From positions 1,034,501 to 1,098,500 of the forward strand of contig NZ_CP025583.1 of assembly GCF_002865605.1 (NCBI RefSeq): a DNA stretch of 64,000 nucleotides, given 5' to 3'. Position 1 is the first letter of the stretch. Every line of letters begins with the position of its first letter. This stretch comes from Paracoccus jeotgali. GTDB taxonomy: Bacteria; Pseudomonadota; Alphaproteobacteria; Rhodobacterales; Rhodobacteraceae. A program made the translations under genes and the position numbers. The notes below the pieces were generated by a model, which had not been told where the DNA came from, did no database searches, and worked only from the letters and a program-made list of their open reading frames with translations. Positions 11,614-56,098 of the stretch are shown in pieces.

Positions 11614-12067
11614 GAACAGGCTTTCTTTTCCGATCCGCCGTGACCGACCGGGCAGGCGAAGCCAAGACCGCTTGGGCAGGGTAGCGCTGGATCACATCAT
11701 GCAGATTCGCGGGGGCCGGCCAAGCTGTTGTTGCGGCGCCGTAGCGTCAACCGGAGACCGGGCGGTTTCGTCGGCTTATTGACCGCGATCAGGTCTCGCT
11801 CGCACCGTCCGTTCACCCGAAAACGGACTGAACCGGACAGAGCAGAACAGAGGGACAACCTGACGAAGAATCACCCCAAGATCATCTTATCCTCCGCCTG
11901 TATATAGATAAAATAAATAAAATCATAATTATACGCCGGAAACATAAGAAACACTCAGAAGTCGTATTTGCGCCTTGAGTTCTCACCATGGTTGTTCCAT
12001 CAATCTATGGTGTAGCGAGTTGCAGCTTTAGCGTGTGTCCCCCATCACAAGCGCGAGGCGAAGCGAC
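11614..12067. other. Intergenic region with AT-rich patch
   Basis: About 450 bases between the aldehyde dehydrogenase gene and the RTX gene with no convincing gene. A sharply AT-rich patch at about 11890-11950 stands out against the GC-rich surroundings and lies upstream of the RTX start. It may hold the RTX promoter or a binding site for a nucleoid or Ros/MucR-type regulator; I see no exact consensus. Confidence 0.4.
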
Positions 12068-15354: not shown

Positions 15355-15621
15355 GCCGTACACCAGGATTGACCATAGCCCTGAGGCTCGCTCAAAGGCG
15401 GTAGCAAGTTGGATTTCTGTTCTATCTCGCTGAACGCCACCCACGTCCAACTGCTTAGCAGACGCTCTCAAAAAGTTCTGCACGTTCAGTTACTTGCAAG
15501 AAATCCGCCTTAACGGCGCAGTCATCAGGTCCAGAGAATACCGGCCCGGAGAGACCGCTTTCAGGCCTGGTTGCATCGTAGGCCAGTGCTCAGCCCCTCC
15601 CGCATACCCTCGGAAACAACG

Positions 15622-15644
15622 GAAAAATCCGGCCACAGCCGGAT
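15622..15644 (-). terminator. Rho-independent terminator, original tRNA-Ser terminator
   Basis: Perfect 7-bp stem ATCCGGC/GCCGGAT (15627-15633 with 15638-15644), four-base loop, followed on the minus strand by a run of five T. It lies about 25 bases past the left attachment repeat in the direction of tRNA-Ser transcription, so before island insertion it would have ended the tRNA-Ser transcript. Confidence 0.65.
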
Positions 15645-15669
15645 CTGGAGAACGCTTTCGCGAGGTCAA

Positions 15670-15686
15670 GTGGCGGAGACGAAGGG
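15670..15686. repeat. attL, 17-bp direct repeat of the tRNA-Ser 3' end
   Basis: GTGGCGGAGACGAAGGG, identical to 30303-30319 inside the tRNA-Ser gene; the match ends on both sides (A versus G before, G versus A after). It defines the far end of the island. Confidence 0.85.
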
Positions 15687-15784
15687 GGCCGAAAATATTC
15701 TCTAACATATTGTTTTATATAAAGTTTTGTGTCTAAAAATTCTGGAAGACCACCTTTTATACCACATGCAAAGATAGCAAGGCT

Positions 15785-15991
15785 TCAACAATTGGAGTTG
15801 TGTCGACGTGCCTCCCCTTCGGTCACCAAGCGATCTTGCAGTGCGCGCAAGATGATATGCTCGATCTCCCAAACTCGGAGACCATGCTCATACGCAAGCT
15901 CCTCGACAAGATTGGCAATTTCAGGATTTTTAGGACCATACATCGGCCAATCATGCAGCTCGTGGCTGTCAGGGTGAGCGCGGATCGTCAT
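15785..15991 (-). CDS. Small hypothetical protein, VapB-antitoxin-like
   Basis: A 68-residue protein starting at the ATG at 15991, chosen because an excellent AGGAGGAC site lies a few bases upstream; the longer open frame to 16090 has no such support. The C-terminal half (NPEIANLVEELAYEHGLRVWEIEHII) resembles the ribbon-helix-helix end of VapB-type antitoxins, which have NP-I-LA-ELA patterns. No toxin gene is adjacent on the same strand. It is the first gene inside the left end of the island. Function uncertain. Confidence 0.55.
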   Translation of the reverse strand: MTIRAHPDSHELHDWPMYGPKNPEIANLVEELAYEHGLRVWEIEHIILRALQDRLVTEGEARRHNSNC

Positions 15992-16194
15992 CAGCTGTCC
16001 TCCTATTGGCACCAAAGCTAGATGTAGCTGGCTACGGCGGCAACGGACTTTGATCGCGATCACGTGCGCTAAGATTCTGAATTCTATCACCCTTTCGTAA
16101 ATCTATGGCTTCATTGGATTTTATTGTGTTCGAGCTACACTCGATGATAAGGTCAGAAGTGCGAACCAACCAAGTAGGCGCGGCGAGTGAGACT

Positions 16195-16941
16195 ATGAGC
16201 AAAAGCTACACGCTGTACATCAATGCCTATACGCCCGAGACCATCCCGATGGCTCGGCTAGCTCAGTACATGCAAAACTTGGCCGCTGTGCTGGGTCATA
16301 CAACAGCGGTTCACTTCGAGACACTGAAGCCTGGCAGCACACAGCTGGTCACGAGAGTCGACTATGAAGAGGTGCCCAAGGTAGAGGCCCACCTTGCCCA
16401 GGTTAAGCGTGGCGAGGGTAGCACCGAGGCGACACGAGCAAAGGCGGAAATCGACCGTTTGCTTTCGGAAGATAACGCCACGGGCTTTGTTTACGAAGAT
16501 GATGATCAGGGGGCTGAAATAATTGTCTTCCCTGGCGCGAGCCGTCCTAAGCCCGCGACCTATGGCCCATTCAATCAAGAAGGTTCGCTTGACGGTATCC
16601 TAATTAGCGTTAGCGGCGCCGATCAGACAGTGCACCTACAACTGCAAAGTGGTGAGATAAGGTACACCGGAATTGACACCAATCGCGATACTGCTCGCCG
16701 TCTTGCCAAATATATGTATGAGCCCGTGCGTATTTTTGGCACAGGACGGTGGCTGCGTGATCAATATGGAAATTGGCTCCTCAAAAAATTTCGAGTCGAC
16801 AGCTTTAGCGTTCTCGCTCAAGAAGACCTAAAAGACGCAATCAGTCATTTGCGTGAAGTTACCGGTAGCGAATGGAAAAGTATGGACGATCCTATTGGGG
16901 TGCTCAAGGCTCTTAGAGAGAAAGGCAATGGACTGCACTGA
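16195..16941 (+). CDS. Hypothetical protein paired with PIN nuclease
   Basis: A 248-residue soluble protein from the ATG at 16195 (MSKSYTLYINAYTPETIPM); the frame is open to an ATG at 16105 but that extension is not protein-like. No known motif is recognised. The second half has beta-rich character (QTVHLQLQSGEIRYTG, PVRIFGTGRWLRD). It overlaps the following PIN-domain gene by one base (TGATG), so the two are co-translated. Codon use is less GC-biased than in chromosomal genes. Possible roles are an antitoxin, an inhibitor or a sensor for the nuclease. Confidence 0.7.
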   Translation: MSKSYTLYINAYTPETIPMARLAQYMQNLAAVLGHTTAVHFETLKPGSTQLVTRVDYEEVPKVEAHLAQVKRGEGSTEATRAKAEIDRLLSEDNATGFVYEDDDQGAEIIVFPGASRPKPATYGPFNQEGSLDGILISVSGADQTVHLQLQSGEIRYTGIDTNRDTARRLAKYMYEPVRIFGTGRWLRDQYGNWLLKKFRVDSFSVLAQEDLKDAISHLREVTGSEWKSMDDPIGVLKALREKGNGLH

Positions 16942-17480
16942 TGGTTGTTTTCGACAGTTCTATCCTGCTCTTAGTTCTCGACCCCAACGCTAAGGCTCCG
17001 ATTGATAATAATACTGGTGCGCCCGTAGATCACGCCGGAGAGAGAATTGAGTATCTAATCTCGAATCTTTCCGCGGATAAGGAGAAAATAATAATCCCAA
17101 CTCCTGTGCTGAGCGAGGTTTTGGTTCACTCTGGCGCTGCGCTGCAACCCTACCTTGAGGCCCTTAATGAACAAGCTGCGTTCAGGATAGCACCATTCGA
17201 TCAGAAGGCGGCGATTGAGGCCGCTCTTGCCATGAGTGATGCGATCAAACGCGGTGGACACAGGGTGGACGCTGCAAACCCAGATGCAACAAAAACGAAA
17301 ATTAAGTTTGATCGCCAGATAGTTGCTATCGCGAAATCAGAAGGCGCTCGTGCGGTCTACTCAGATGACGCAGATGTACATAACTACGCTAGGTATGCTG
17401 GTTTAGATTCCTTCAGAACAGAAGATCTCGATCTTCCGCCAGAAGACCCTCAACAATCCTTAAATTTTGACCCGAATTGA
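16941..17480 (+). CDS. PIN domain-containing nuclease-like protein
   Basis: A 179-residue PIN-domain protein. The first acidic residue is in MVVFDSSILLLVLD, a second in PTPVLSEVL (Glu near residue 57), a third in KFDRQIVAIAK (Asp near residue 128), and the last cluster in VYSDDADVHNYA, so the four-acid active site appears intact. PIN proteins are metal-dependent RNases, often VapC-type toxins. It is larger than a typical VapC and follows a 248-residue partner rather than a small antitoxin, so it may be an unusual toxin or defence nuclease. Confidence 0.8.
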   Translation: MVVFDSSILLLVLDPNAKAPIDNNTGAPVDHAGERIEYLISNLSADKEKIIIPTPVLSEVLVHSGAALQPYLEALNEQAAFRIAPFDQKAAIEAALAMSDAIKRGGHRVDAANPDATKTKIKFDRQIVAIAKSEGARAVYSDDADVHNYARYAGLDSFRTEDLDLPPEDPQQSLNFDPN

Positions 17481-17600
17481 TAGCACGTTTGCACTATCCT
17501 CGGGTAGAAAAAAACGAAAAAGATCGAGGCACAAAAAAAGACAGCGTTGGTCTTTTTCAGGACGACCAAACAAGTGCCTAGTTGTATTATATAGGTGCTT

Positions 17601-19376
17601 TTAAAAGACTACTCTGCCCTGTTTTTTGGGGAGTGCTGAGAAGTGGTCTAAGATCTCCTCCATGATGTCTAGGATCGGGGAGAAGGCGTCAAAATTGATC
17701 GTTGCTTGGTCTTTAGACACTTTCTCAGCTAGAATTCTCTTTCCATAGTGTTTTTTCTTATCGAAAGTCTTCTCGTCAGGGTTGAAGGTTTTTCCGCCGA
17801 GGACTTGAGATACCACGGCGGGTGGAAGGAAGTCTTCGATCATGCTGTCTTTTCCACCGGCGAGCTTCGGGGTCGGAATCACATAGAGATTCTTGGTGAC
17901 GTGATAGAATTTCTTTTTCCCATCAACATTCTTCTTCGAACCTGATGTTGTCTTAATCGCCCCCCAAAGGCCATCTCGCGACCCCTGATCATTATCAACT
18001 AAGAGGATAACAGGAGAAATGAACCCCCTTTTTCCCAAGTCAGCTGTGCGAACCTTGTACTTGTGAATCAGCTCTTTGAGGTCACCGGTGCCGCCGTTTA
18101 AGTGTTGTACTGAGCTTGGGACTCTTAATTTGCTTCCAATTTTTGGATACTGGAACAACTTAACTGCTAGACCATTCGAAGAACCGCTGTCTTGCAGTTT
18201 AGGGCGCGCGGTCTTGCTGCGCTTGATAGCGCATTGCAAATAAATATTGTCTGTTACGCCCTCGCAGAGAACTACAGGCTGCTGAGACGCCACAAAAGTC
18301 TTGTAATCCAAGAAGCGCCGGTACTCTTTGTAGAAGCCTGGCTCCGCTGGCCCTGTGGCCTTGTTGAGCCTTTTATATTCAAACTCAGCGCCCTTCACCC
18401 AGAAGATGTGACTTAGAAACCCTTGGAGGGCGGCTTCAGTTACTTCAACTTCACTTTCGACACCTCCAATTTTAACCTTCTTGGAACAGGTGTCGTTTTT
18501 TATGAAGTTCTGAACTTGAGCTCGGACCTGTTTATAGAGTTCACGCTTGACATTGACCTTCTTATTTACAACGAGGCCAGTAACATCCTGCCTAGACCTT
18601 CTATACTGCATGCGAGTTTTATCAGGATTTATTTCGAAGCCAGATCGCTTAACTTCAGTGCGGATCCTTTTGGATAGCTTCCAGTCTCCAGCCGAGTTTT
18701 CGTCATCACGGTTCGCCGCTATTCCTTCCGGGAACTCACTCTTGTTAGTCGAGAAAGTTATGTCATCCGCATATCTGGTGTAGGTGCACCTGTTTTTCCC
18801 GGAAATCCTTGAAAGTCTAATGTCAAGATGGTTTGCGACGAGATTGGATATAACGGGGGATGTAGGCGCTCCTTGGGGCAAGGAGCCGTTATGGCACGCC
18901 AGTTGTGCAATTATCGTAGCTACTTTCTCTTCGAGCATGAAGTGCTTGTTCTTCATGAAGAAACCACGAACTCTCCCGAAGTTGATTGAGGGAAAAAAAT
19001 CCTTCAGATCGAAGTTCAGTACCCATTTTCTATCAACATGCTGGGCGCCGTTCGTCGAAATGGACAAATGAGGTTTGAAGCCGTGAGATAAAATGCAGTT
19101 CTCTCCGTTGGCTTGCTCTTTCTCAATCTCGGTCAAGCAATTTTGCAGAACCTTCGCCAGTCGGCTTTGAGCAAGTTTAAGCTCTGGAATTGGGGCTGAT
19201 ATTTTTCGGACGCCCTTGGTCGCCTTCGGAATTTCAAATTCCGTATACTTTGCTTCATCCGGAATCTTATAGAGAATGTATGATAGCTTCTTAGGCTCAT
19301 ATCCGACAAGGTGGGCAAGGTTAGAGAGACTTTTGCACGACTTTAGTCTGGATAAGGAACTCATACGATCCGCCAA
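17601..19376 (-). CDS. Retron-type reverse transcriptase with C-terminal Toprim-like domain
   Basis: A 591-residue protein. Residues about 40-320 form a retron reverse transcriptase: NFDLKDFFPSI (motif A acids), LPQGAPTSPVISNLVANHLD, the catalytic RYADDITFS, and a VTGLVVN segment matching the VTG motif of retron enzymes. TNGAQH before motif A sits where retron enzymes have NAxxH. After about residue 370 a second domain has VVLCEGVTDNIYLQ and later PVILLVDNDQG, the Glu and Asp-x-Asp features of a Toprim fold. Retrons with a Toprim joined to the RT are a known class; the domain probably serves as effector nuclease. Start may be Met1 or Met5. It is low in GC for this genome and lies in the mobile island. 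Confidence 0.88.
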   Translation of the reverse strand: MADRMSSLSRLKSCKSLSNLAHLVGYEPKKLSYILYKIPDEAKYTEFEIPKATKGVRKISAPIPELKLAQSRLAKVLQNCLTEIEKEQANGENCILSHGFKPHLSISTNGAQHVDRKWVLNFDLKDFFPSINFGRVRGFFMKNKHFMLEEKVATIIAQLACHNGSLPQGAPTSPVISNLVANHLDIRLSRISGKNRCTYTRYADDITFSTNKSEFPEGIAANRDDENSAGDWKLSKRIRTEVKRSGFEINPDKTRMQYRRSRQDVTGLVVNKKVNVKRELYKQVRAQVQNFIKNDTCSKKVKIGGVESEVEVTEAALQGFLSHIFWVKGAEFEYKRLNKATGPAEPGFYKEYRRFLDYKTFVASQQPVVLCEGVTDNIYLQCAIKRSKTARPKLQDSGSSNGLAVKLFQYPKIGSKLRVPSSVQHLNGGTGDLKELIHKYKVRTADLGKRGFISPVILLVDNDQGSRDGLWGAIKTTSGSKKNVDGKKKFYHVTKNLYVIPTPKLAGGKDSMIEDFLPPAVVSQVLGGKTFNPDEKTFDKKKHYGKRILAEKVSKDQATINFDAFSPILDIMEEILDHFSALPKKQGRVVF

Positions 19377-19423
19377 GTATCTATTTTGGTGAGCCCATGG
19401 GCACTCCTAGGCAACCGAAGGGT

Positions 19424-19577
19424 CACATAAGATATGCTGAAGGAAACCCGATAGGGCATATCCACCTGACGGTGGTTTCATCCGTCGCGAAGCACAACGG
19501 TAAAATCTGCCCACAGGCTCGGGGTGGAAGCTGCCATTCCTTGCGGGGGCCTGCAAGAGGTAAATTCTTATTTTTGT
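19424..19577 (-). ncRNA. Candidate retron msr-msd RNA
   Basis: The 150 bases just upstream of the reverse transcriptase, read on its strand, fold into consecutive hairpins: CTTGC/GCAAG (19540-19557), an 8-bp stem with two wobble pairs (19482-19500), CCACC/GGTGG (19462-19475), and GATATGC/GCATATC (19431-19462). The ends can pair as an a1/a2 stem: ATAAGA at 19566-19571 with TCTTAT at 19427-19432, extended by CAC/GTG after a bulge. Placement and architecture fit a retron non-coding RNA. The branching guanosine and msr/msd boundary cannot be assigned with confidence. Confidence 0.5.
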
Positions 19578-19774
19578 GATCCTGTTTGATCGCCGCCATT
19601 TCCACGGGGGCGATTGCTTCAAACGTCGTTCGGCTTTCTGTCATCCAAAATGCTCGCACACTGAGCTCCTTGCGCCTTCACGGTTGCAGATAGGCAGTGG
19701 CTGCGCGCCAAATCGCAGCTCTCGGGCTAACGCTGGACAGCTCGGAGGCTGCCGGGTCAGGCTATTCCAAGATT

Positions 19775-20803
19775 CTATTTGACCGCAGCACTCAATCGAT
19801 CCGCGCGCTCAATCCGACGCTGGAGCTTTGCGCCAGTGCTTGTCGAAGATTGACTGGTTGTAGCCTGGGAAGTAGCGGACTGCTTGGCGTTATCATTGGT
19901 CTTGGTTGTTGAGTGGGGATGGAGCTGCCGTTGCGCCGAACGTGGACGTAGCGTCCGCTGGCTTCCGTAAGCCACGATTGAGGCAGCCCAGCCGGACTGA
20001 AGATTGCCCGAGATCATTGGAACGATAAACGGAATTGCCACAACCATTACCAGTGACAGGATGACCACTCCAAGGAAGGGTACCATCTTTCCGGCCTTGT
20101 CTGCATTATCTGCGGCTCCAAGGTCGCTGATCAGGAGTGTCACTAGGCCGAAGACCATTGAGAAGACCCCTGCGATCACCACCGGGTAAAGGGCGAAGCT
20201 CGCTAGGGACGAAATCCAGCGGTGGAAGTAGTCCTTGGTCACTTCAAACATCGAGCAGAGGATCATGACCGGGCCCAGGCCGATGAGCAGCGTGATCATC
20301 ATCTTTGCGAGCACCAAAACCGCGCCGGCCAATCCGCCCACTAGAGCGATCAGTGCCATGAAGAACACGCCCATCAGCGCTTTGCTGACCCGAGACATAT
20401 GGGAGGCGGCTTCGTTTCCATATTCTGCCAGCCGGTCCATCTGAAGATCGAAGCGCGCTGCAAAGTAGGCCGACCCTACAGCATCCTCGCCAGTGGCTGA
20501 GCCCACCAGTTTACCGGCAAGTTCGTCCAATCCGTCAATCAGGTGCCCACTGACGAAGTTGAAGTTCGCCCAGTTCAACGCGAACGCCTTGATTAGGCTG
20601 ATCTTGAAGAGAAGTACCAGCATCTCTCGGCCATCCATGGGCCGGATTTGCCATGCCATGTTAATGAAGAGAGCGATGATCGCAACGGTCGCGGCTCCCA
20701 TGATGATCGTGCCGGAAATTTCAGCCACGGCGGCGAACTGCGACGTTGCGACGCTATCGAGGCCCTTGTCCGCAGCATCTACGATGAAAGTGACGATCCC
20801 CAT
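19775..20803 (-). CDS. VirB6/TrbL-like type IV secretion membrane protein
   Basis: About 342 residues with six or more hydrophobic segments (for example IIMGAATVAIIALFINMAW, FFMALIALVGGLAGAVLVLA, FLGVVILSLVMVVAIPFIV) followed by a Ser/Thr/Gln-rich cytoplasmic tail. Layout and the LIGLGPVMILCSMF segment fit VirB6, the polytopic channel component of conjugation machines. ATG at 20803 overlaps the stop of the preceding gene (TGATG) and has GGAGAGAGG upstream. No other VirB gene is present in the island. It may modify or plug into the machine of a helper plasmid, or act in exclusion. Confidence 0.82.
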   Translation of the reverse strand: MGIVTFIVDAADKGLDSVATSQFAAVAEISGTIIMGAATVAIIALFINMAWQIRPMDGREMLVLLFKISLIKAFALNWANFNFVSGHLIDGLDELAGKLVGSATGEDAVGSAYFAARFDLQMDRLAEYGNEAASHMSRVSKALMGVFFMALIALVGGLAGAVLVLAKMMITLLIGLGPVMILCSMFEVTKDYFHRWISSLASFALYPVVIAGVFSMVFGLVTLLISDLGAADNADKAGKMVPFLGVVILSLVMVVAIPFIVPMISGNLQSGWAASIVAYGSQRTLRPRSAQRQLHPHSTTKTNDNAKQSATSQATTSQSSTSTGAKLQRRIERADRLSAAVK

Positions 20804-21213
20804 CACCCTCTCTCCTGACATTGCTCGCGCAGCGCCGCGCGGAGAGCCGAAATGACAGGGAAGTATTCTGCGGTTGCCCAGGTGACATGAGCGCTGTCCG
20901 TCGCCTGCGGATCAGTAAAACCGAGCGCCTCGAACTCCTCTTCTATGCCGGACCAGTCAGGCCAGAGTGCATCGCAGGCACATGACCCCGCGTCTAGCGC
21001 AGCCTGGTGTCGTCGCAGGCTATAGAGGTCGTTCGCGGCGGTATTACGCCATGCATCACGGAATCCGCTGTAGGTCAGTTCGTCCGGGCGCTGTCGAACC
21101 GCGCAGCCGTAGCGATCTACTTGTGTCGGGCTGACAGAAACTGAAGGCGTGGCCGTGTCTGCGCAGAGGGGACCAGCTAAGGCGATCAGAATAAGCGTGG
21201 TAAGCAATTTCAT
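20803..21213 (-). CDS. Small exported protein upstream of virB6
   Basis: A 136-residue protein with a clear N-terminal signal peptide (MKLLTTLILIALAGPLCA) and a mature part with at least four cysteines, probably disulfide-bonded in the periplasm. There is no good lipobox. Family unrecognised. It is coupled to virB6 by a one-base overlap. In IncW/IncN-type conjugation clusters a small exported entry-exclusion or VirB7-type protein often precedes virB6, so a similar role is a reasonable guess only. Confidence 0.65.
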   Translation of the reverse strand: MKLLTTLILIALAGPLCADTATPSVSVSPTQVDRYGCAVRQRPDELTYSGFRDAWRNTAANDLYSLRRHQAALDAGSCACDALWPDWSGIEEEFEALGFTDPQATDSAHVTWATAEYFPVISALRAALREQCQERG

Positions 21214-21228
21214 TTCAGTATCCTCCGG

Positions 21229-21543
21229 TCAGTCGGCGCTTCGAGGTGATTGGTCGATGTGCGTGAAGTCGCGGCTCGGCGCCGCGCTCAGCCAACCTTG
21301 GATCGCGGCGAGATTGCCGTGTTCGCTGAGCACGATTTCCAGCCCTTGGCGAAAGCCCTTCGGGCATTGGTTTGCGTAGCGGCGGGCCTGCGCGCCTAGC
21401 TCAAACGCGTAGCTGTCGTCCCAGATCGCCCCGCTGCGGATTAGCACCCCGATACGTTCCAAGGCGTCGAACGCGCGATCACTGCCTGGACGCCATGCCA
21501 ACCATGGGTTCACCGGGAAGCGCGGTTTAGTGTCGGAGCGCAT
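21229..21543 (-). CDS. Hypothetical protein between mob and virB6 genes
   Basis: A 104-residue basic soluble protein of unrecognised family (MRSDTKPRFPVNPWLAWRPG at the start). It overlaps the end of the relaxase gene by about 17 bases and is followed by the exported protein 15 bases later, so it belongs to the mobilisation operon. No motif supports a specific function. Confidence 0.6.
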   Translation of the reverse strand: MRSDTKPRFPVNPWLAWRPGSDRAFDALERIGVLIRSGAIWDDSYAFELGAQARRYANQCPKGFRQGLEIVLSEHGNLAAIQGWLSAAPSRDFTHIDQSPRSAD

Positions 21544-23047
21544 GGGTATCCTCCCTGTCTTCGCTCAGCGCGTCTCGAGGTGCTTCTTCGCCCTCTGCGC
21601 CTGTTCCATGCTGTCGTTGAGTTGCGCGGAATCCGGCATCCAGGCGCTCAACGCTGCGGCCAAGGAGAGCTGTGATCTGAGCAACGCGATCACGGAGCTG
21701 CGTAACCCAGCCAGTTCCGTGCGCGTCTCCTCGCCGGAGCTGGTCAATTCCCGCGCGGATTCCTTCGAGGCTTCCGTCAACCGCTCGACGCAGCTTAGTA
21801 ATTCGCGCTCTAACGCTGTCAGACCATGCATCGCTCACTCCTTTGGCAGAACGAGACAGTCCACCGGCTCCCCCGCCAATTGGCAGCGGTCCAGTGTCGC
21901 CCGGCCATCGCGTGGGATCAGGTATGTCGCCTCGGGACGGTCGATCACTCGCAGCCCCATCGTGTTCAGGTTCGGCATCAGCCAGGTCATGACCGACCAT
22001 GTCGAAATCCCAGTGCTGATCATCAGGCAGCAAGCTACCAGTGTCGGCCACATCAGGGCTTTCCACTCTGGCCGTGCTGCGTTCGCGCTCTGTCTCATGA
22101 GGTGTTTCCTCACGCGCAGCAGGTAGCCTTCCGTATCGGTCTTGATTGTAGCCAGCGCGTTTTCGGCAATGCCCTTCAAATCGGTCCTGAAGCTCTGCAA
22201 CTGTGTGTCGATCGAGGCGGCGTTCTCTGCCCTGATCCGCTCCATGTCCGCGTTCAGTTTCTCGCTCAGCCGTTGTTTCGGCTCTCCAGTTTTCATGAAA
22301 ACACGTCCCTTTTAGTCTGAATTTTTCTTTTGAGATTGGATCGACGACCGAGACAGAGTCGCCTCGCTGCCGATTGATCTCGTACCCCGCGTCCTGAAAC
22401 GCGCTGATCAAGGTCGCACGATCCGTGATGAGCCCGACCGAGATATGATCACGTAACCAATCATGGATTTCTGCCCGGGCTTGCTTCCGCTCCGCTGACT
22501 CCCTGACTTCTTTGAAGTCGAGCCTGCGTGCTGCATCCAGAGGATCGGCCCATCCATGGGTTCCGTTCATCAAGTCGCGCAGGCTGTCGAAGGCGCGTTC
22601 GTAGCCGGGCGGAGCGATGTTGAGGCTGCGTCCGCTATAAAGCTCCATCCGGGGTGTGCAGAAGTGCAGCTCTACGCGGTCCTCATGGGTGTGGCGCACC
22701 CACAGGCAGGCGTAGCGGTCAGCATCGAGCCCGGCGAAGGCGATCTCTTCGAAGCGGTCGATGACCTCCTGCTGCTGGTCTTTGGAGGGGGCATCCTGGT
22801 AGGCGAAGCTGACGACACCGGCGCGATAGGTCCACTTATGCGGGCAGGCATCGATCAGGTCGATCATGCCCTGAGGATCGCCGCGCATAACCTCCGGCAG
22901 CGGTTCGCGGATCACGGTCATGGGCTGGCCAGCTGCATCTCGGATCAGGTCGCGATTATCGTAATAGGCGAGCACGGTGCGGGCGGTCAGGTATTCGACC
23001 GGCCCCGCACCGCCGCCTTTGCCGTTGGGGAAGAATTTGATCAGCAT
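21527..23047 (-). CDS. MbeA/MobA-type relaxase
   Basis: A 506-residue relaxase starting MLIKFFPNGKGGG. The N-terminal 250 residues form the nuclease domain: WVRHTHEDRVELHFC supplies histidines of the type used in the metal-binding HHH/HEN motif, and YLTARTVLAYYDNRD precedes it. The rest is charged and probably elongated. It would nick oriT and pilot the strand into a helper secretion channel. The start overlaps the mbeC-like stop by seven bases. Two other genes are nested in another frame inside its 3' half. The gene organisation is that of ColE1 mbeA. Confidence 0.82.
   Translation of the reverse strand: MLIKFFPNGKGGGAGPVEYLTARTVLAYYDNRDLIRDAAGQPMTVIREPLPEVMRGDPQGMIDLIDACPHKWTYRAGVVSFAYQDAPSKDQQQEVIDRFEEIAFAGLDADRYACLWVRHTHEDRVELHFCTPRMELYSGRSLNIAPPGYERAFDSLRDLMNGTHGWADPLDAARRLDFKEVRESAERKQARAEIHDWLRDHISVGLITDRATLISAFQDAGYEINRQRGDSVSVVDPISKEKFRLKGTCFHENWRAETTAERETERGHGADQGRERRLDRHTVAELQDRFEGHCRKRAGYNQDRYGRLPAAREETPHETERERSTARVESPDVADTGSLLPDDQHWDFDMVGHDLADAEPEHDGAASDRPSRGDIPDPTRWPGDTGPLPIGGGAGGLSRSAKGVSDAWSDSVRARITKLRRAVDGSLEGIRAGIDQLRRGDAHGTGWVTQLRDRVAQITALLGRSVERLDAGFRATQRQHGTGAEGEEAPRDALSEDREDTHALRH
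21565..21831 (-). CDS. MbeD/MobD-like protein nested in relaxase gene
   Basis: An 88-residue, Glu/Leu-rich helical protein (MHGLTALERELLSCVERL) read in a different frame entirely inside the relaxase gene. The N-terminal pattern T-LE-ELL--VE-L and the coiled-coil content match the MbeD/MobD family of ColE1-type plasmids. A ribosome site AAAGGAG overlaps the end of the preceding nested gene, only three bases away. This arrangement copies that of ColE1, where mbeB and mbeD lie inside mbeA. Confidence 0.7.
   Translation of the reverse strand: MHGLTALERELLSCVERLTEASKESARELTSSGEETRTELAGLRSSVIALLRSQLSLAAALSAWMPDSAQLNDSMEQAQRAKKHLETR
21835..22296 (-). CDS. MbeB-like mobilisation protein nested in relaxase gene
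   Basis: A 153-residue protein read in the same alternative frame as the MbeD-like gene, inside the relaxase gene. A charged coiled-coil N-terminal half (QRLSEKLNADMERIRAENA) is followed by one hydrophobic segment (PTLVACCLMISTGISTW) and a short tail, as expected for a membrane-associated MbeB/MobB that stabilises the relaxosome at the conjugation pore. That such a structured protein persists in a second frame argues for real dual coding. Confidence 0.7.
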   Translation of the reverse strand: MKTGEPKQRLSEKLNADMERIRAENAASIDTQLQSFRTDLKGIAENALATIKTDTEGYLLRVRKHLMRQSANAARPEWKALMWPTLVACCLMISTGISTWSVMTWLMPNLNTMGLRVIDRPEATYLIPRDGRATLDRCQLAGEPVDCLVLPKE

Positions 23048-23481
23048 CCGGGCGGCCTCCGATGCTGTGCTAGGATTTCCTCCAACCGCCGCTCGATGCC
23101 CACCAGCGCCGCCGCCACGCGCAGCGCTTCGACCTCGCTGAACCGGCCCGCGCGGGTCGCCGTGTTCAACCAACGCGCGATCTGGTTGAGATTGCCGCCG
23201 TAGCGCGCCACGGCCAGAACGAGAGAAGGGTCAACGCGGGGCGCGGGTTTGCGCCGCCGAGACTGCGTGGCCCACAGGGCCTCCCGCAGAAGCTCGGCGG
23301 CTGGCAGACCCGCCGCTTCGGCTTTAGCCCGAAGCGCGGCCTTCTCTTGCGTCGAGCATCGGAAAACGAAGGTTTCCGTGCGCGGCTCCTTTGCGCGGCC
23401 TTGGACCGCGCCGGTGGGGTTCGAAGGGGAGGCTTGCCCCCCCTCGCAAGGCCCCGTGTCAGAAGCGTCAGCGTATGACAT
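23041..23481 (-). CDS. MobC/MbeC-like relaxosome accessory protein
   Basis: About 146 residues starting at MSYADASD (an upstream Met at 23514 is possible). The segment GGNLNQIARWLN is the diagnostic motif of the MobC/MbeC family, preceded by a ribbon-helix-helix-like KAEAAGLPAAELLREAL. These proteins bind and open oriT DNA so that the relaxase can nick. It overlaps the relaxase start by seven bases. The oriT is expected just upstream or within the 23.5-23.9 kb region but I could not fix it. Confidence 0.82.
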   Translation of the reverse strand: MSYADASDTGPCEGGQASPSNPTGAVQGRAKEPRTETFVFRCSTQEKAALRAKAEAAGLPAAELLREALWATQSRRRKPAPRVDPSLVLAVARYGGNLNQIARWLNTATRAGRFSEVEALRVAAALVGIERRLEEILAQHRRPPGC

Positions 23482-23942
23482 GGGTCGCCTTGCTCCTTTC
23501 TCCGCTCCAGCCATCTCAGCCCATCCCTTCCGCTCTGGGCAGCGCAGCCAACTCTTCTAGATGCAGGATTTGGAGGCGAAGCTCTGCGCTCCCCAGATGA
23601 GACGGCCAAGTGGCAGGGAGCCAATAGCCCCGCTTTCCTTCGTGCTTGACCTCGTTGAGAAGGCGCCGGAGTTCGAGGCGACCTGACCGAATAAGCCGAT
23701 CATCCCACTCGCGTTCGAACACGCTGCCCCCACCAGGAACGAAGACCAGAGCCCCACGGCTTGGCGCTAGCTGCTCCAGCTGCGTACTCTTCGTTGTATT
23801 TTTACTTATACTCTTAGAGTGACATTCCTGTCGCCTTTTCTGAGACAGCGATGTCACCTCATTGCGGCGGTCCTGCCAGGGTTTCACTATGGAAAGGGTG
23901 ACGTAACCGTCATCCTTTCTTGGTAAGCGTCCGGCCTGACCG

Positions 23943-25441
23943 CTACCCGCGCCATTTCCAAGGCAGCAGGTCATCGACCTTTGTGATCTTGTAATCAGGG
24001 ATACGGGCCAGGGTGTCGGCGAGCCAGGCATGGGGATCGATGGCGTTGAGCTTGGCTGTTTCGATCAGGGTGTAGGCGATGGCGGCGGCCTTTCCACCTG
24101 CCTCGGAACCGACGAATAGGTAGTTTTTCCGCCCGAGGGCGATGGCGCGCATGCCGCGTTCGGCGGCGTTGTTGTCGAGCTCGAGGATGCCGTTGTCGAG
24201 GTAGGGGCGCAGGCGTTCCATCCTGGTGAGGGCGTATCGGATGGCGGCCGCTAGCGGGGATTTCCCCGAGATCGTGGTGAGTTGCATGGCCAGCCAGACT
24301 TCCAGGTCATCGAAGACCGGGGCGGCATGTGCCTTACGGAGTTCGGCGCGGCGGTCCGGTGGCGAACCTCGGGCTTCCTTCTCGACGGCATAGAGCCGGG
24401 CGATGCGGCCGATGGCCTCCTCAGCGATCGGCGAACCTTGCGATCGGTGGATGTCCACGAACTTGCGCCTGACATGGGCCATGCAGGCGACCTCGCGGAT
24501 GGCGCCGGAACGGTAGAGATCCTCGAACCCGGCATAGCCGTCGGCATGCATCCAGCCGCGGAAACGGGCCAGATGATCCTTGGGGTGCTGACCCTTGCGG
24601 TCGCCCGAGAAGCGATACCATGCGGCAGGCGGAGCATCGCCATCCCATGGGCGCTCATCGCGGGCATAGGTCCAGAGCCGGGCCGTCTGGGTCTTGCCGG
24701 TGCCGGGCGCCAGCATCCGCACCGGCGTATCGTCGGCGAAGATCGCCTCGGCCGACAGGACATGGCGCCCGATGGCCTCGGCCAGTGGCTCCAGAAGGGT
24801 GGTGGTCTTGCCGACCCAGTCGGCCAGGGTCGATCGGTCGAGATCGAGCCCTTCGCGGCCGAAGATCTGGCTCTGGCGATAGAGGGGAGATGGTCGGCAT
24901 ACTTGCTGACCAGCACATGGGCCAGCAGACCCGGCCCGGGGCGACCGCGCTCGATCGGGCGCGACGGCAGCGGGGCCTGGACGAAGCGTTCGCAGCAAGC
25001 GCAGGTCAGCCGGGGGCGGACAATCCGGTTCACGATGAAGCGCCCAGGAACATACTCCAGCTCTTCCGTGACGTCCTCGCCGATCCGGCGCAGGCGACCG
25101 CCGCAATCGGCACAGGCATCGGCGCCGGGCATCAGTTCCACCTCCATCCGGGGGATATGATCCGGGATCGGACGGCGCTTGGGTTTGCCCTTCTCCTCGA
25201 TGTCCGGCAGACGCATCCGCGCCGTCATCGCGGCGGCCGCGATCTCGCTGGCCTCAAGAGCCAACTGAAGCTGTTCTGCCGTCTCCGAGGACGCGCCGAA
25301 CCGGTGTGCCCGGTGCCCGGCCAGTTGGTGCCGCAGCTTCTCGATCAGGATCGCCTGCGCCTTCACCTCGGCCAGAAGCCGCGCGGTGAAGCTGCGCAAC
25401 TCCTCGGGATCTTCCGGCAGGGTCAGGGTCTGATCGAGCAT
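23943..25441 (-). pseudogene. tnpC: IS66 transposase TnpC, frameshifted
   Basis: DDE transposase of IS66 (about 500 residues when repaired). The N-terminal part to KYADHLP carries the coiled coil and the CADCGGRL and CACCERF zinc-finger cysteines; the second part begins LYRQSQIFGREGLDLDRSTL in another frame and runs through FADDTPVRMLAPG, WMHADGYAGFEDLY and LELDNNAAERGMR, the catalytic acids. One base is missing in the G run at 24884-24887. If real, the transposase is inactive. Confidence 0.85.
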
Positions 25442-25501
25442 GCAAGGAGTTTATCCCACGGGATTCCTTATGGGAATCATTCTCTTGTGGCCCCCCCCTG
25501 A

Positions 25502-25849
25502 TTATCCCGCTGCCAAGGGCCGCCACGTTCGCTCCGGGGCACGCCAGTCGATCCCTTCCAGGAGCATCGACAACTGCGCCGGTGTCAGCGCCACCTTCCC
25601 CTCCTTGGCCGAGGGCCAGACGAACCGGCCCCGCTCCAGCCGCTTCATGAACATGCAGGCCCCCTGGCCATCCCACCAGATGACCTTCACCAGATCACCG
25701 CGACGGCCGCGGAAGACGAAGAGATGCCCGCCGAAAGGATCCTGCTTCAGCACCGCCTCGGCCTGCGCCGCCAAGGAAGCAAAGCCCTTGCGCATGTCGG
25801 TGACCCCGGCAGCCAGCCAGACCCGCGTGTTGGCCGGAACCGGGATCAC
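25502..25849 (-). CDS. tnpB: IS66 accessory protein TnpB
   Basis: A 115-residue IS66 Orf2-family protein with the family segments [39 protein letters not shown] and [27 protein letters not shown]. Needed with TnpA and TnpC for IS66 transposition, exact function unknown. It overlaps tnpA by four bases. Confidence 0.92.
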
Positions 25850-26241
25850 GCCGAAAGTCCCCGGATCAGCCGCGCCAGCGCCTCAGGATCATAGCTGCCG
25901 CTGATCCGCATCCGGTGACCGCCCGCCAGCTCGATCTCGATGTGGTTCTCGGCGGCAGGTGCCGCCGGAGTAGACCTGGTCTCCGCGACGATCTCTACGG
26001 GCAGAAACCGCGCCTCCTCTGCTGGGGGCGCAACCGAGGTGGGGTCCGGCGCATAACGGGGATCGCGCAGCCACTTGAAGATCAGGTTCGCGTTCACCGC
26101 GTAGCGCCGCGCCACCTGAGCCACGGAAACGCCCGGCGCCGCCGTCTGGAAACAGATCGAACGCTTCTCCTCATCCGTCCAAAGTCGCTTCGTCCGACGC
26201 GCCACGCCATCACCATAGTGTCCACTATCAATGGTGGACAC
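25846..26241 (-). CDS. tnpA: IS66 accessory protein TnpA
   Basis: A 131-residue HTH protein of the IS66 TnpA family: [29 protein letters not shown] is the helix-turn-helix, followed by [16 protein letters not shown]. The GTG at 26241 is the furthest start; a GTG further in (before ARRTKRLW) is also possible. The start lies in a perfect inverted repeat (26215-26244). The IS3 element sits only 20 bases upstream and may have removed or replaced its promoter. Confidence 0.88.
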
Positions 26242-26244
26242 TAT
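26215..26244. repeat. 11-bp perfect inverted repeat at IS66 tnpA start
   Basis: ATAGTGTCCAC, eight-base spacer, GTGGACACTAT. It covers the likely tnpA start, so it could be an operator or a hairpin limiting tnpA translation. Confidence 0.6.
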
Positions 26245-27208
26245 CCGCCTCTTTCACCACGCGTGACGTTGCCCCCAACTTTTATCCAGCGTGAGCGAGA
26301 CTCCGGGACTGAGTTTTGCCCATTTGGGCGGGTTGGGCAACGGGGGCTGGCGCGGAGCTTTGCGGATTGCGCAGCGTCAGGCCCGTTGCGGGTGAAGGTT
26401 TCGGCAAACTCGGCTGGGGTCTGCCAGCTGAGGCGGGAGTGGGGGCGTTCGGTGTTGTAGTCCGTGCGCCAGGCGACCAGCGTTGCGCGGGCATGGTGCA
26501 GGGACGGGAACAGCGTTTCGTTCAAGAGTTCGTCTCGCAGGCGACCGTTGAAGCTTTCGATGAAGGCATTCTGGGTCGGCTTTCCGGGCGCGATGTAATG
26601 CCAGTCAAACTTGCGGTCATCCACGAATTTGAGGATCGCATTCGAGGTGAACTCGGTTCCATTGTCACTGACCACCGTCTGAGGCTTGCCGCGGGTGTCG
26701 AACAGCGTCGCCAGTTCCCGCGCCACCCTTGCCCCCGAGAGCGACGTGTCCGCGATCAGCGCCAAGCATTCCCGCGTGCAGTCATCGACCACGGTCATGA
26801 TCCGGAACCGGCGGCCATCGGTCAGCTGGTCTGACACGAAGTCCAGCGACCAGCGCTGGTTTGGCAGCAAAGGCAGCACCATCGGGCCCGTGTGCCCATG
26901 GCCCGCTTGCGCCCGCCCCGGCGACGGACATGCAACTGCTCTTCGCGGTAGATGCGAAACAGGCGCTTGTGGTTGACCTCGTGGCCCTCGCGCCGCAGGA
27001 AGACATGCAACCGACGATACCCGAACCGGCGCCGGACCTTTGCCAATTCTTTCAGCCGCTCGCGCAGCACAGGGTCGTCTTGGCGGACCACCTCATACCG
27101 CATGGTCATCCGGCAACAGCCGATCACCCGGCACGCCCGCCGTTCGCTCATCTCGTGACTTGCCACTAGATGCGCGACCGCTTGCCGCTTCGCGGCGGGC
27201 GTCACCAC
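26241..27208 (-). pseudogene. IS3 transposase OrfB, frameshifted
   Basis: Integrase-core transposase. The first part (27208-26822) has the HTH_21 segment [23 protein letters not shown]; the second (26882-26241) has the DDE core: [21 protein letters not shown] and [17 protein letters not shown]. Between GRKRAMGTR and [11 protein letters not shown] one base is missing in GGGCCC at 26884-26889. The open frame reads past the element end at 26264 into IS66 sequence. Normally made as an OrfAB fusion by -1 slippage at the A6G heptamer 27208-27214. Confidence 0.85.
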
Positions 27209-27533
27209 TTTTTTCCGAGCAGATCCTTCAAGGCCGAATTGTCGAGCATGGAGTCGGCCAGCAGCTTCTTCAGCCTGCCGTTCTCATCCTCAAGCGCCTT
27301 CAGACGCTTCGCCTCGCTGACATCCATGCCGCCATACTTGGCTTTCCACTTGTAAACGGTCGCATCGCTGACGCCGTGCTTACGGCAAAGATCGGCAACG
27401 GAAATCCCCGCCTCGTGCTCCTTCAGAATGCCGATGATCTGATCCTCGGTGAACCTGCTGCGCTTCATCTCTGGTCCTTTCGGTTAGGCCAGAGTCTACC
27501 TCAAACTGGATTAGGCAGAGGGGGGCAACGTCA
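26264..27533. mobile_element. IS3 family (IS407-like) insertion sequence
   Basis: Inverted ends TGACGTTGCCCCC at 26264 and its complement ending at 27533, flanked by a 4-bp direct repeat CGCG (26260-26263 and 27534-27537). 1270 bp, with orfA and orfB on the minus strand. Inserted within the IS66 element upstream of its tnpA, so it arrived last. Confidence 0.9.
27202..27468 (-). CDS. IS3 transposase OrfA
   Basis: An 88-residue helix-turn-helix and leucine-zipper protein (RFTEDQIIGILKEHEAG, VSDATVYKWKAKYGGMDV, then LKALEDENGRLKKLLAD) of IS3 elements. Near the stop lies A AAA AAG, the classical -1 frameshift heptamer that lets ribosomes enter the orfB frame. Confidence 0.93.
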   Translation of the reverse strand: MKRSRFTEDQIIGILKEHEAGISVADLCRKHGVSDATVYKWKAKYGGMDVSEAKRLKALEDENGRLKKLLADSMLDNSALKDLLGKKW

Positions 27534-27955
27534 CGCGGCAGGGCGGTCAGGCCGGACGCTTACCTTTCTTGCGCTGATCTCTCGCTTGATTTGTTCTGCA
27601 ATCTCGATGGACTCAGCGGTTATTTTGTAGCTGGTCGAGCGAGTTCGGCCGCTTCCACGATCTGTATTAAACCAACCAAGGCGCTCTAGGCTGTTGATAG
27701 CCCGCTGGACTGTTCGAGGTTCGACGCTCATATCCCGAGCGATCGTGGCAACGGCAGGATTCAACTGACCGGTCCGCCAGTTTAGACGAACGTTGATCAA
27801 GTAGGCGCCAAGCGCTTTCTCTGTCCCCGACAGCAAGGGGCTTGCAAAAAGCGCCTTATGCCATTGGATGCGAACAGCTTTGAAGCTTTCAAGATCAGTC
27901 ATGGTAGGACCTGCCTCTCAGCACGTGGGCTAGCCATCAACGCAAGAGCGTTGGA

Positions 27956-28180
27956 TTAGCCAAATTGCTGGGTTTCGGCGCTGGTCGTCGCCACACGATT
28001 ACCGTTGATCCAGTTGTTGAGGTCGGCGCCGTGGTATTTCACGCGCCTTCCAAACTTCAAGAAAGCGGGGCCAACGCGGCGGTGCCGCCACTGCGCCCTC
28101 TTAGCTTTCGGGGCAATCAGATCGAGTTCATCATCCGCGTCATCGTAGAGGCGATTTTCTTCAAATACATGCAATGACAT
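27956..28180 (-). CDS. Excisionase/AlpA-like HTH protein
   Basis: A 74-residue MerR-type DNA-binding protein. AQWRHRRVGPAFLKFGRRVKYHGADLNNWI is close to the HTH_17 pattern of excisionases and AlpA regulators, in which a winged helix reads DNA and the Leu-Asn-Trp ends the fold. The expected upstream AAxLg helix is degenerate. Beside the integrase and the HTH gene, it likely controls excision or transcription of island genes. Confidence 0.7.
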   Translation of the reverse strand: MSLHVFEENRLYDDADDELDLIAPKAKRAQWRHRRVGPAFLKFGRRVKYHGADLNNWINGNRVATTSAETQQFG

Positions 28181-28269
28181 CTATCCAACTCCGCTTGCTT
28201 CGGATCATTTCTGGATAGTTGCATCCGGTTGGCTGTGCTTCTATGGGGGAGCGGAAACCGCACTTCAAG

Positions 28270-28977
28270 TTATTGAAAATAAATGCCTATTGGCGAGGAT
28301 GGCGCTCGCATCCTGACTCTTCTGGTTCGCAGCAATTCACCCCAAAAATGAGCATTCCACACCTCGAAATCTTCAGGGAGTATCACGGGGTTCTGCTCTT
28401 CAGGCAGGGCATCGGACCAGGCATTGTAGTCCCTGTTCCTGTAGTAGATATGGGCGTACGGCAGGACGCACTCGAAGCGTTTGAAACGCTGCCGAAAACT
28501 ATCGACAGACAGAAACCGATAGCCCTCTGGCCATGCCGACACATCGGGTAGACCAAGCCCTCCACTTGCATGAACCTTGTTGATTGCCACCCTACTGGAT
28601 CGAAAGCTGGATATAGCCTTCTGGATCGCAGATTTCTTGGACGCCCCGGTCACCATGAAGTCCAGAGCTCGCCCAAGTGGTACCAGTTCATTACTGTGGA
28701 TCTTGGGCCATTCCCGCCGTGCCGCCAGGTAGTCCATACGGGCATCATCCAGCGATACGACCATACCCTGATAGGCTGTGCGAGCCGCAAAATTCAGACC
28801 ATGCCGATACTTCTTATGCCAAGTAACGATCTCCTCCGCCAATGCGCCTCGATACAAGCGGTGAAAGCTCTGCTCGAAGCGATTGGCCATCAGAAGACAC
28901 TCAACAGCGAGCCAGCGTGCTTCCGGTTCAAGGAGGAACTGCCAGCCGCTGGTCTGGGCTTTCACAAATCTCATATC
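28270..28977 (-). CDS. Hypothetical protein downstream of integrase
   Basis: About 235 residues from MRFVKAQTSGWQFL (28977); an earlier ATG at 29010 would overlap the integrase by 40 bases. Mainly helical, soluble, with no recognised motif. It directly follows and slightly overlaps the integrase gene, so it is probably co-transcribed with it and belongs to the island core. Confidence 0.6.
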   Translation of the reverse strand, partial: DMRFVKAQTSGWQFLLEPEARWLAVECLLMANRFEQSFHRLYRGALAEEIVTWHKKYRHGLNFAARTAYQGMVVSLDDARMDYLAARREWPKIHSNELVPLGRALDFMVTGASKKSAIQKAISSFRSSRVAINKVHASGGLGLPDVSAWPEGYRFLSVDSFRQRFKRFECVLPYAHIYYRNRDYNAWSDALPEEQNPVILPEDFEVWNAHFWGELLRTRRVRMRAPSSPIGIYFQ

Positions 28978-30155
28978 GCAGCCCTCGACCCCACACAGAA
29001 ATCCGACCACCGCCCCATCAAATCGCGCCGCTTGTGTAGCAAATCACTCCTGGCGTAGGCTCGCTCCACTTCCGAACCGACTTTGTGACCCAAGCTCATT
29101 TCCGCAATCTCGCGCGGAAGGTCGCCGGTCTCAGAAGCCCAGTCACGGAAGGCTGATCTGAAACCGTGGACAGTAATCTCCTCGATCTTCATTCGGCGCA
29201 GCAGCATCAGCATCGACATATTTGACAAAGGCTTATGTCGCCGTTGTCCCTCGAAGACACATTCCGAACGTAGGGTCTTCAGCGGTTCGAGTAGGGCTGA
29301 CATTTGATCTGTGATCGGAACACGATGCTCTGCCCCCGTCTTCGTACGTGCTTCAGGTATAGTCCAAACTAGCTCATCGAAGTCGAATTCTTCCCAAACC
29401 GCTTGAAGTACCTCGCTGGTCCGGCATCCAGTCAGGCAAGTAAACATCAATGCCTTCGCCGCCATGCCGCTTTGCCGAGAAAGCTGGGCGTAGAACGCCG
29501 GGACGTCCTGCCACCGCATGGCGTTGTGGTGCTTCACCTTGGCCTTCACGCGCGGCAGGACACGAGCGTCCATGACGACCGTCACGGGGTTCTCGCCTTC
29601 ACGGAAGCCGCGTGAGCGGGCGACGTCCAGAACCGCCTTCATGCGTTGTGCGACACGACGAGCGGTCTCATGCTTCTCGGTCCAGATAGGGGAGAGGACC
29701 TGCAAGACCTCTGGCTGATCAATCTCAGACACAGGCAAGCGGCCGATTTTGGGGAAGGCGTAATCTGCGAGCGTGTTGATCCACTGCTGACCGTGCTTCG
29801 GGTTCTTCCAGGTCGGCAGACGCTCGATATGGACCTGACGCGCGACCTCCTCGAAGCATGGTACCTCCTTGTCGCGATGGTACTTCGGGTTCAGTCCCTG
29901 CTTGGCGAGGCGCCGGTATTCAAGCGCTCGTTCTCGGGCGACTGTCAGGGTTATGATGTCAGCGCCGCCTAGACCGAAGTCCGTTCGGTTGGGCTTTCCT
30001 TGGCGGTTGCGCTGACCCTTCACTGTGACCCGCACGATCCACCGACGGGCACCGGATGGGTCAACCACGAGGTAGAGGCCGTTGCCGTCGCCGTGCCGCC
30101 CCGGGCCGAGGGTGCGGACAAGATTCTTGGTTAGTTTGCCAGAGGTGTAGGCCAT
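28971..30155 (-). CDS. Tyrosine recombinase (P4-type integrase)
   Basis: About 394 residues from MAYTSGKLTKNLV. The N-terminal arm-binding domain of the P4/DUF4102 type (GNGLYLVVDPSGARRWIVR) is followed by the catalytic domain with the first Arg in LTGCRTSEVL, HGFRSAFRDWA carrying the His-x-x-Arg, LGHKVGSEVERAY with the second His and the nucleophilic Tyr. It sits about 150 bases from tRNA-Ser, into whose 3' end this class typically integrates. It would catalyse both insertion and, with an excisionase, loss of the island. Confidence 0.93.
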   Translation of the reverse strand: MAYTSGKLTKNLVRTLGPGRHGDGNGLYLVVDPSGARRWIVRVTVKGQRNRQGKPNRTDFGLGGADIITLTVARERALEYRRLAKQGLNPKYHRDKEVPCFEEVARQVHIERLPTWKNPKHGQQWINTLADYAFPKIGRLPVSEIDQPEVLQVLSPIWTEKHETARRVAQRMKAVLDVARSRGFREGENPVTVVMDARVLPRVKAKVKHHNAMRWQDVPAFYAQLSRQSGMAAKALMFTCLTGCRTSEVLQAVWEEFDFDELVWTIPEARTKTGAEHRVPITDQMSALLEPLKTLRSECVFEGQRRHKPLSNMSMLMLLRRMKIEEITVHGFRSAFRDWASETGDLPREIAEMSLGHKVGSEVERAYARSDLLHKRRDLMGRWSDFCVGSRAAI

Positions 30156-30302
30156 CAGACGTACCACCTTTCATACCACGGAACGAATAGAACCGAGCGC
30201 AATCGAAGTGAAACGAACGCAACCAACGAACGAGAATAAGCGCATAAGTCCATAGACTTATACGCTATCAAGCGCCCCAAGGCCATTCAATGAAAATGGT
30301 AG

Positions 30303-30319
30303 GTGGCGGAGACGAAGGG
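30303..30319. repeat. attR, 17-bp repeat within tRNA-Ser
   Basis: GTGGCGGAGACGAAGGG, the 3' end of tRNA-Ser including the encoded CCA, identical to 15670-15686. The island is joined here, leaving the tRNA gene intact. Confidence 0.85.
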
Positions 30320-30393
30320 ATTCGAACCCTCGATACCGTTTCCGGTATGCACCCTTAGCAGGGGTGTGCCTTCGACCGCTCGGCCACGTCTCC
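30304..30393 (-). tRNA. tRNA-Ser(GCT)
   Basis: 90 nt class II tRNA with encoded CCA. Acceptor GGAGACG pairs with CGTCTCC, the anticodon loop reads CTGCTAA (GCT), a long variable arm follows (ATACCGGAAACGGTAT), and the T arm is GGGTTCGAATCCC. It is the integration target of the island. Confidence 0.95.
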
Positions 30394-55959: not shown

Positions 55960-56098
55960 AACGAAAAAGGCCGCCCCCGAAGGGACGGCCCGGTGGCGGG
56001 AACCGCAGCGACCGTGAGGCGCAGGTTTTCCCGAAAGCCTGGAGCACCAGGTGGGCGCCGGTTAACGTGACCAGGGCCACGACAGAGCCAGCCCCCAT
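55960..56098 (-). ncRNA. Candidate small RNA with own promoter and terminator
   Basis: On the minus strand a perfect TATAAT (56110-56105) is followed about 7 bases later by a likely start at 56098 and about 110 bases on by a terminator hairpin GGCCGTCCC/TTCG/GGGGCGGCC with a T run (55990-55964). No stop codon closes an open frame before the terminator, so a short RNA of about 140 nt is more likely than a protein. It does not match SRP RNA, RNase P or tmRNA motifs I know; 6S-type or a novel sRNA is possible. Confidence 0.4.
55964..55990 (-). terminator. Convergent rho-independent terminator
   Basis: Minus-strand stem GGCCGTCCC/GGGGCGGCC with TTCG loop (one mismatch) followed by TTTTTCGTTGCG. 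That tail is an exact inverted copy of the sequence after the plus-strand terminator (55927-55938 versus 55957-55968). Confidence 0.8.

Follow-up and report, generated by a model that had tools for sequence, protein, structure and literature searches.

The stretch of DNA analysed here, called the window, comprises 64,000 nucleotides (nt) of Paracoccus jeotgali (assembly GCF_002865605.1, NZ_CP025583.1, positions 1,034,501-1,098,500) and carries on its minus strand a gene for a reverse transcriptase (RT) fused to a Toprim domain, preceded by the non-coding RNA (ncRNA) of a retron; all coordinates below are window positions. A sequence-only reading had assigned the interval 17601..19577 to an RT-Toprim retron. 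The gene in that interval was confirmed, but the upper limit had been set too far, since the protein begins at 19364 and positions 19391-19520 belong to the ncRNA, which that reading did not describe. The features of the retron, with the grounds for each, are as follows.

17601..19364, minus strand: RT-Toprim fusion protein, 587 amino acids (open reading frame call, family models, solved relatives, fold comparison)
18762..18773, minus strand: YADD, RT catalytic motif, residues 198-201 (Y, D and D in 33 of 33 aligned proteins)
18249..18263, minus strand: EGVTD, Toprim catalytic glutamate and aspartate, E368 and D372, equivalent to Eco2 E374 and D378 (mapping to Eco2)
17988..17999, minus strand: VDND, Toprim DxD, residues 456-459, with D457 and D459 equivalent to Eco2 D460 and D462 (mapping to Eco2)
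19391..19520, minus strand: retron ncRNA (msr-msd), 130 nt from a1 to a2 (conservation, covariation, covariance model)
19508..19520, minus strand: inverted repeat a1 (sequence comparison)
19507, minus strand: predicted branching guanosine in a GGCA-G-ATTT context (comparison; branching by inference)
19482..19500, minus strand: msr hairpin, 8-bp stem and 3-nt loop (folding and covariation)
19405..19471, minus strand: predicted msd template, about 65-67 nt, first templating base A19405 (by position from Eco2; distal end uncertain)
19391..19403, minus strand: inverted repeat a2 (sequence comparison)

The RT-Toprim protein and its family

The minus-strand reading frame that ends at 17601 is uninterrupted throughout. 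The start adopted is the ATG at 19364, which gives the protein MSSLSRLK..., and a methionine occupies the same place in four relatives (loci L001, L002, L022 and L023); an alternative TTG at 19376 would add four residues. The border between the domains was placed by analogy with Eco2, the Ec67 retron of Escherichia coli, in which the RT spans residues 1-368 and the Toprim domain residues 369-586 (PMC12405507), so that here the RT would occupy about residues 1-360 and the Toprim domain about residues 361-587. The motifs YADD, VTG (residues 261-263), EGVTD and VDND, on all of which the sequence-only reading had relied, are present once each in the protein.

Assignment to a family was clear. The NCBIfam model of the Ec67 retron (NF038237) matched with 681.6 bits against a cut-off of 450, over model positions 1-572 of 572, and the PADLOC model RT-Toprim_I-C gave 702.1 bits, ahead of RT-TIR_XII, the highest-scoring model outside that type, with 353.7; both the Ec67 and the I-C models span the RT and the Toprim domains. 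From Pfam, RVT_1 alone matched (70.7 bits), and Pfam Toprim gave no match to the protein at E 0.1. The Toprim assignment is thus based on the full-length family models, on the residue mapping to Eco2 and on the fold comparison of the fusion protein, in which the Eco2 (Ec67) entries were best. The best solved sequences were likewise the Eco2 chains (E 2e-100; aligned residues 4-581, numbered from the TTG start).

The catalytic residues were mapped through a protein alignment to the Eco2 chain, and their conservation was followed in 33 proteins hand-picked from the best 120 database matches. Eco2 residues F46, Y199, D201, D202 and E374 correspond to F43, Y198, D200, D201 and E368, and D378, D460, D462 and E515 to D372, D457, D459 and E510. 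All nine are present in the 33 proteins, as is K542, an invariant lysine that aligns with Eco2 K546 by hand count on the alignment. The Toprim part keeps the conserved glutamate, glycine and DxD of that fold (E368, G369, D372, D457, D459 and E510). Hence the earlier proposal of an RT-Toprim retron is supported by the Ec67 and I-C scores, the likeness to Eco2, the intact catalytic residues and the ncRNA, and, as judged from its sequence, the retron is a clear member of the already described, widespread antiviral family Ec67/Eco2 (type I-C). This basic finding is unsurprising, since 7970 of 7998 scored database proteins matched at E 0.001 or better (the 120 best of them being the listed set), although the weaker ones may match through the RT alone. 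The family has already been named and given a curated model, several structures of it are solved and a mechanism is published, and the locus adds one member to it; among the titles of openly accessible literature, none naming this particular retron was found.

In the host genome the family model has a single match; sub-threshold matches to it also occur in 3 of 14 control genomes. At the level of the order, 9 of 390 genomes matched the protein at E <= 1e-60, and at least 20 genomes of the same genus had no match; at the level of the class, 6 of 385 genomes had a match above the family cut-off, and in two of these the gene is interrupted by a stop (both counts include the genome of the window). 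The closest relatives discussed here are L001 (Oceanicola sp. 22II-s10i), with a protein 88% identical, and L002 (Litoreibacter arenae), with one 82% identical. Their neighbourhoods differ from that of the window: a 441-amino-acid relaxase-like protein adjoins L001 and a type I restriction-modification system adjoins L002, both named by eye. Plasmid records matching the protein numbered 215, 17 of them over at least 80% of the query, and phage records 57, of which one (MT836041.1, 32.6% identity) reached that coverage. A scan of viral contigs with the protein found no relative, and a 19-base ncRNA pattern was absent from them.

The non-coding RNA and the conservation of its msd

Upstream of the gene lies a stretch that is nearly identical among the window, L001 and L002: the window shares 123 of 131 columns with L001 and 122 with L002, and 122 are the same in the third pair, while the preceding 75 columns match at only 26, 34 and 33 in the same three pairs. 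The a1 and a2 repeats at its ends pair across 13 bp. A covariation analysis was carried out on 8 related sequences and on 15 more distant ones, neither the window nor its close kin being among the latter; some of the ncRNAs extracted for these sets had their outer ends trimmed. In the set of 8, 98.1% of the two-helix cells pair and 11 of 21 pairs have changed on both sides; in the set of 15, the corresponding values are 95.7% and 19 of 21. The msr helix, which was not selected for pairing, is paired in 96.9% (set of 8) and 89.2% (set of 15) of its cells. Four of the five covariation measures were reached by none of 500 shuffles in either set.

A covariance model built from the 15 sequences located the RNA in the window at 19392-19519 (95.5 bits, E 2.4e-20) as the sole window hit up to E 10. 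Over 394 family genomes the same model gave nine hits, each directly upstream of an RT-Toprim frame; three of the genomes had supplied model sequences, one is that of the window and five are new. A search for the a1/a2 stem by itself was not decisive for some relatives: against 30 shuffles each, the stem was unmatched at 10 of 18 loci (window included) and equalled by 1 to 4 shuffles at the other 8, L003 and L013 being omitted as duplicates of the window and L002. At gathering thresholds Rfam does not list the ncRNA and gives two tRNAs and a 6S RNA in the window. Searches of phage and plasmid collections with the ncRNA (blastn) returned no match, the msd query found no copy in the host genome besides itself, and no promoter-like site was seen upstream of the ncRNA on its strand (consensus scan of 17400-19800; 4 sites in the region, 1.9 expected).

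The branch and the template were positioned relative to Eco2 and to the Ec67 RNA. In Eco2 the branching rG15 follows the repeat ending at A14, the stem-loop spans 20-42 and the last copied base lies opposite rG52 (PMC12405507). By this analogy the predicted branch is G19507, the first templated base would lie opposite A19405, and the multicopy single-stranded DNA (msDNA) would measure about 65-67 nt, the distal end of the msd being uncertain. A guanosine stands at the branch position also in L022, L023, L024, L028 and L029, loci first found by the RNA model; in the aligned covariation sets its presence was a condition of the search by which the sequences were extracted.

In this branch of the family conservation is far stronger in the ncRNA, including its msd, than in the gene. 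In the window, L001, L002, L022 and L023, which amount to four lines because L022 and L023 are 99.5% identical in the compared coding part, the msd is invariant in 59 of 64 columns and the msr in 32 of 38, compared with 959 of 1473 positions in the coding part and 136 of 491 at third codon positions. Six chosen pairs were then compared over an msd slice that begins 80 nt and stops 13 nt before the end of the ncRNA and extends a little beyond the predicted msd. In the five pairs of alphaproteobacterial type (the window with L001, L002 and L014; L017/L018; L015/L024) the msd and coding identities were 97.0/81.4, 95.5/77.5, 80.0/53.8, 94.0/80.0 and 93.8/75.1%, and in the gammaproteobacterial pair L009/L011 the msd was 59.4% identical against 63.5% for the coding part; 0, 0, 4, 0, 4 and 6 gapped msd columns, respectively, were excluded. 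The excess of msd conservation, apparent from these alignments in all five pairs of alphaproteobacterial type but absent from the only other pair compared, is a lead and not a result.

The mobile element

The sequence-only reading had also placed the retron in a mobile element, and a tyrosine integrase, a tRNA-Ser(GCT) site, direct repeats and mobilization genes are indeed found around it:

15670..30319, no strand: integrative mobilizable element carrying the retron (17-bp direct repeats at 15670-15686 and 30303-30319)
28971..30167, minus strand: tyrosine integrase of the element (protein family scan)
30304..30393, minus strand: tRNA-Ser(GCT), integration site (tRNA detection)
21527..23173, minus strand: relaxase of MbeA/MobA type, below family cut-offs (protein family scan)
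23041..23514, minus strand: NikA/MobC-like mobilization protein (protein family scan)
19775..20821, minus strand: TrbL/VirB6-type conjugal transfer protein, the next gene past the ncRNA (protein family scan)
23943-25106, minus strand: IS66 transposase, between the mobilization genes and the integrase (protein family scan)

The integrase adjoins the tRNA gene, whose 17-bp end recurs at 15670-15686, and from this arrangement the retron is taken to be carried by an integrative mobilizable element, about 14.6 kb long, in tRNA-Ser(GCT). With the element removed and its flanks joined, the resulting sequence has unbroken matches spanning the junction in several congeneric genomes (for example, 1-341 of 517, 82%). 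The left flank is repetitive in the genus, so that these matches may lie at other chromosomal sites. Seven of the eight loci of this join search were scanned for tRNAs; tRNA-Ser(GCT) was present in six, counting that of the window, and not in the seventh. In many genomes of the genus (relatives L042-L047) the left flank (15420-15686) matches at several sites each, often joined to tRNA-Ser sequence, and these copies may be remnants of earlier integrations at tRNA-Ser.

Inside the element, at 16105-17480 on the plus strand, two adjacent genes converge with the retron. One encodes a 278-amino-acid protein without a match in Pfam, NCBIfam or PADLOC, and the other a 179-amino-acid protein with a PIN match of 23.3 bits, just under the Pfam cut-off. 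No second component of the retron was seen, as none of the 8 element or flank proteins tested matched in PADLOC. Just outside the element, at 12035-13249 on the plus strand, lies a gene for an RTX-type calcium-binding repeat protein (163.9 bits), with a second open reading frame at 13402-13995; farther away, at 55996-56152 on the minus strand, is the 6S RNA, which with 47.3 bits barely passes the Rfam cut-off of 46.4.

Proposed cycle, alternatives and known systems

Taken as a whole, the locus is very probably a type I-C retron of the Ec67/Eco2 family, most likely with an Eco2-like cycle. That cycle is the best inference here because the domains, the residues and the RNA layout are the same. 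The RT would bind the ncRNA transcribed upstream of its gene, prime on the 2'-OH of G19507 and copy the msd, and the branched RNA-DNA hybrid would stay bound to the fusion protein, in which state the Toprim nuclease would be kept inactive. Attack by a phage on the msDNA, or a change in it, would free the Toprim domain to cleave RNA, probably tRNA; translation would stop, and the infected cell would die or stall before phage is made. The protein family, the intact RT and Toprim catalytic residues and the conserved, covarying ncRNA in its place were found at the locus itself, while the branching, the inhibition, the trigger and the RNA target are presumed to be those of Eco2. In Eco2 the msDNA bridges a trimer in which the Toprim domain is inactive, the isolated Toprim domain is toxic and cleaves RNA, and the four escape phages sequenced carried a frameshift in denB (PMC12405507). 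DenB relieves the inhibition of Eco2, whose Toprim domain cleaves tRNA (PMC12956279, citing others), and T5-like phages without a tRNA-rich region infect Eco2-bearing bacteria less well (PMC11555353).

Several observations weigh against this explanation. The motif NAxxH reads NGAQH here and NAYKH in Eco2; the glycine occurs in 6 of the 33 proteins, and N105 and H109 are kept in all of them, which leaves the second letter as the only departure from the motif. The metal-site residue S513 of Eco2 aligns with M508, H281 with Q285 and R70 with S67, and Eco2 residues 329-333, R332 of the trimer contact among them, stand opposite a gap in the alignment, in a region that varies among the 33 relatives. 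Neither the trimer nor the details of the inhibition need therefore be as in Eco2, and the trigger may differ as well; the trimer is possibly not a defining trait of the family. K562, the catalytic lysine named for Eco2 (PMC12405507), does not fall on a lysine, position 562 of the deposited chain (PDB 9i2f/9lm3) being an aspartate as aligned. In the covariation analysis, the fifth measure (further pair types) was reached by 102 and 215 of the 500 shuffles, and the a1/a2 helix is paired partly by construction, because this pairing, together with A-G and T at the inner ends, was the criterion for extracting the sequences. The predicted msDNA gave no better DNA fold than shuffles (z -0.16 and -0.13), while the Eco2 msDNA is reported as a long DNA hairpin; with no significant hairpin, a fold is not claimed for the msDNA of the window. 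Such weak folding is not specific to the branch, as 12 of 15 sequences, window included, had z above -1.5, with L005, L006 and L020 lower. The msd letters are far more conserved than the gene without a strong predicted DNA hairpin, and the alphaproteobacterial RT-Toprim msd might be read by its sequence and not just by its hairpin, its DNA copy carrying a fixed motif recognised by the fusion protein or by a factor of the host or the phage; this idea is speculative and rather improbable.

A working retron of the family whose Toprim output or trigger is unlike that of Eco2, for instance one that cleaves DNA instead of RNA or does not respond to a DenB-like nuclease, is the most probable of the alternatives, though still rather unlikely. 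The unaligned trimer loop, the replacements of S513 and H281 and a host far from E. coli speak for it, and the related Toprim domains of OLD and Gabija are nucleases, GajA being known in a DNA-bound state (PMC12405507); the metal-binding carboxylates and the overall fold are nevertheless as in Eco2. It is considerably less probable that the retron serves the mobile element as an addiction or stabilisation module and not in phage defence. Its place as cargo of an integrative mobilizable element and the toxicity of the isolated Eco2 Toprim domain (PMC12405507) would suit that role, but its relatives occur in varied settings, such as beside the restriction-modification system of L002 or on plasmids, and Eco2 defends against phage.

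A decayed or silent copy is very improbable. Decay does happen in the family, as the two class-level genes with an internal stop indicate, and NGAQH in place of NAxxH could be taken as a sign of it; against it stand a reading frame uninterrupted from end to end, the retention of the mapped catalytic carboxylates, 13 bp of pairing between the ncRNA repeats, and relatives that preserve both RNA and protein with only 51-58% identity at third codon positions. An RT of another class, from a group II intron, a diversity-generating retroelement or a defence-associated reverse transcriptase (DRT) system, with a C-terminal part unrelated to Toprim, would account for the missing Pfam Toprim match and for weak matches to the group II intron RT (61.6 bits), Drt2 (34.0) and Drt3a (33.7). 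These scores lie far under the respective cut-offs of 300, 390 and 200, the Ec67 and I-C models cover both domains and a retron ncRNA is present, so that this alternative is in effect refuted and its probability almost nil. The group II intron and DRT readings had been rejected on the family scores (for TIGR04416, 61.6 against 300).

As a type I-C retron, the locus adds to the Eco2 family a member with its ncRNA placed to the base, on a tRNA-Ser element in an alphaproteobacterium. The covariance model, moreover, found the ncRNA in five genomes outside its building set.

The known system closest to the locus is Retron-Eco2 (PDB 9lm3, 9i2f, 9s1f). Both are one-protein RT-Toprim systems, of 586 amino acids in Eco2 and 587 here, with the same catalytic carboxylates and one msr hairpin between the a1 and a2 repeats (Eco2 layout from PMC12405507). 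They differ in that the proteins are only about 36% identical, in the NAYKH motif and S513 of Eco2 against NGAQH and M508, in the trimer-contact loop, which has no aligned counterpart here, and in the host, E. coli against an alphaproteobacterium, and the mobile element. The RT-TIR (type XII) and RT-protease (type XI) retrons share a related RT and the fusion to an effector in a single protein (353.7 and 341.5 bits), but their effector is a TIR domain or a protease, and the best match ends by residue 392, approximately at the end of the RT.
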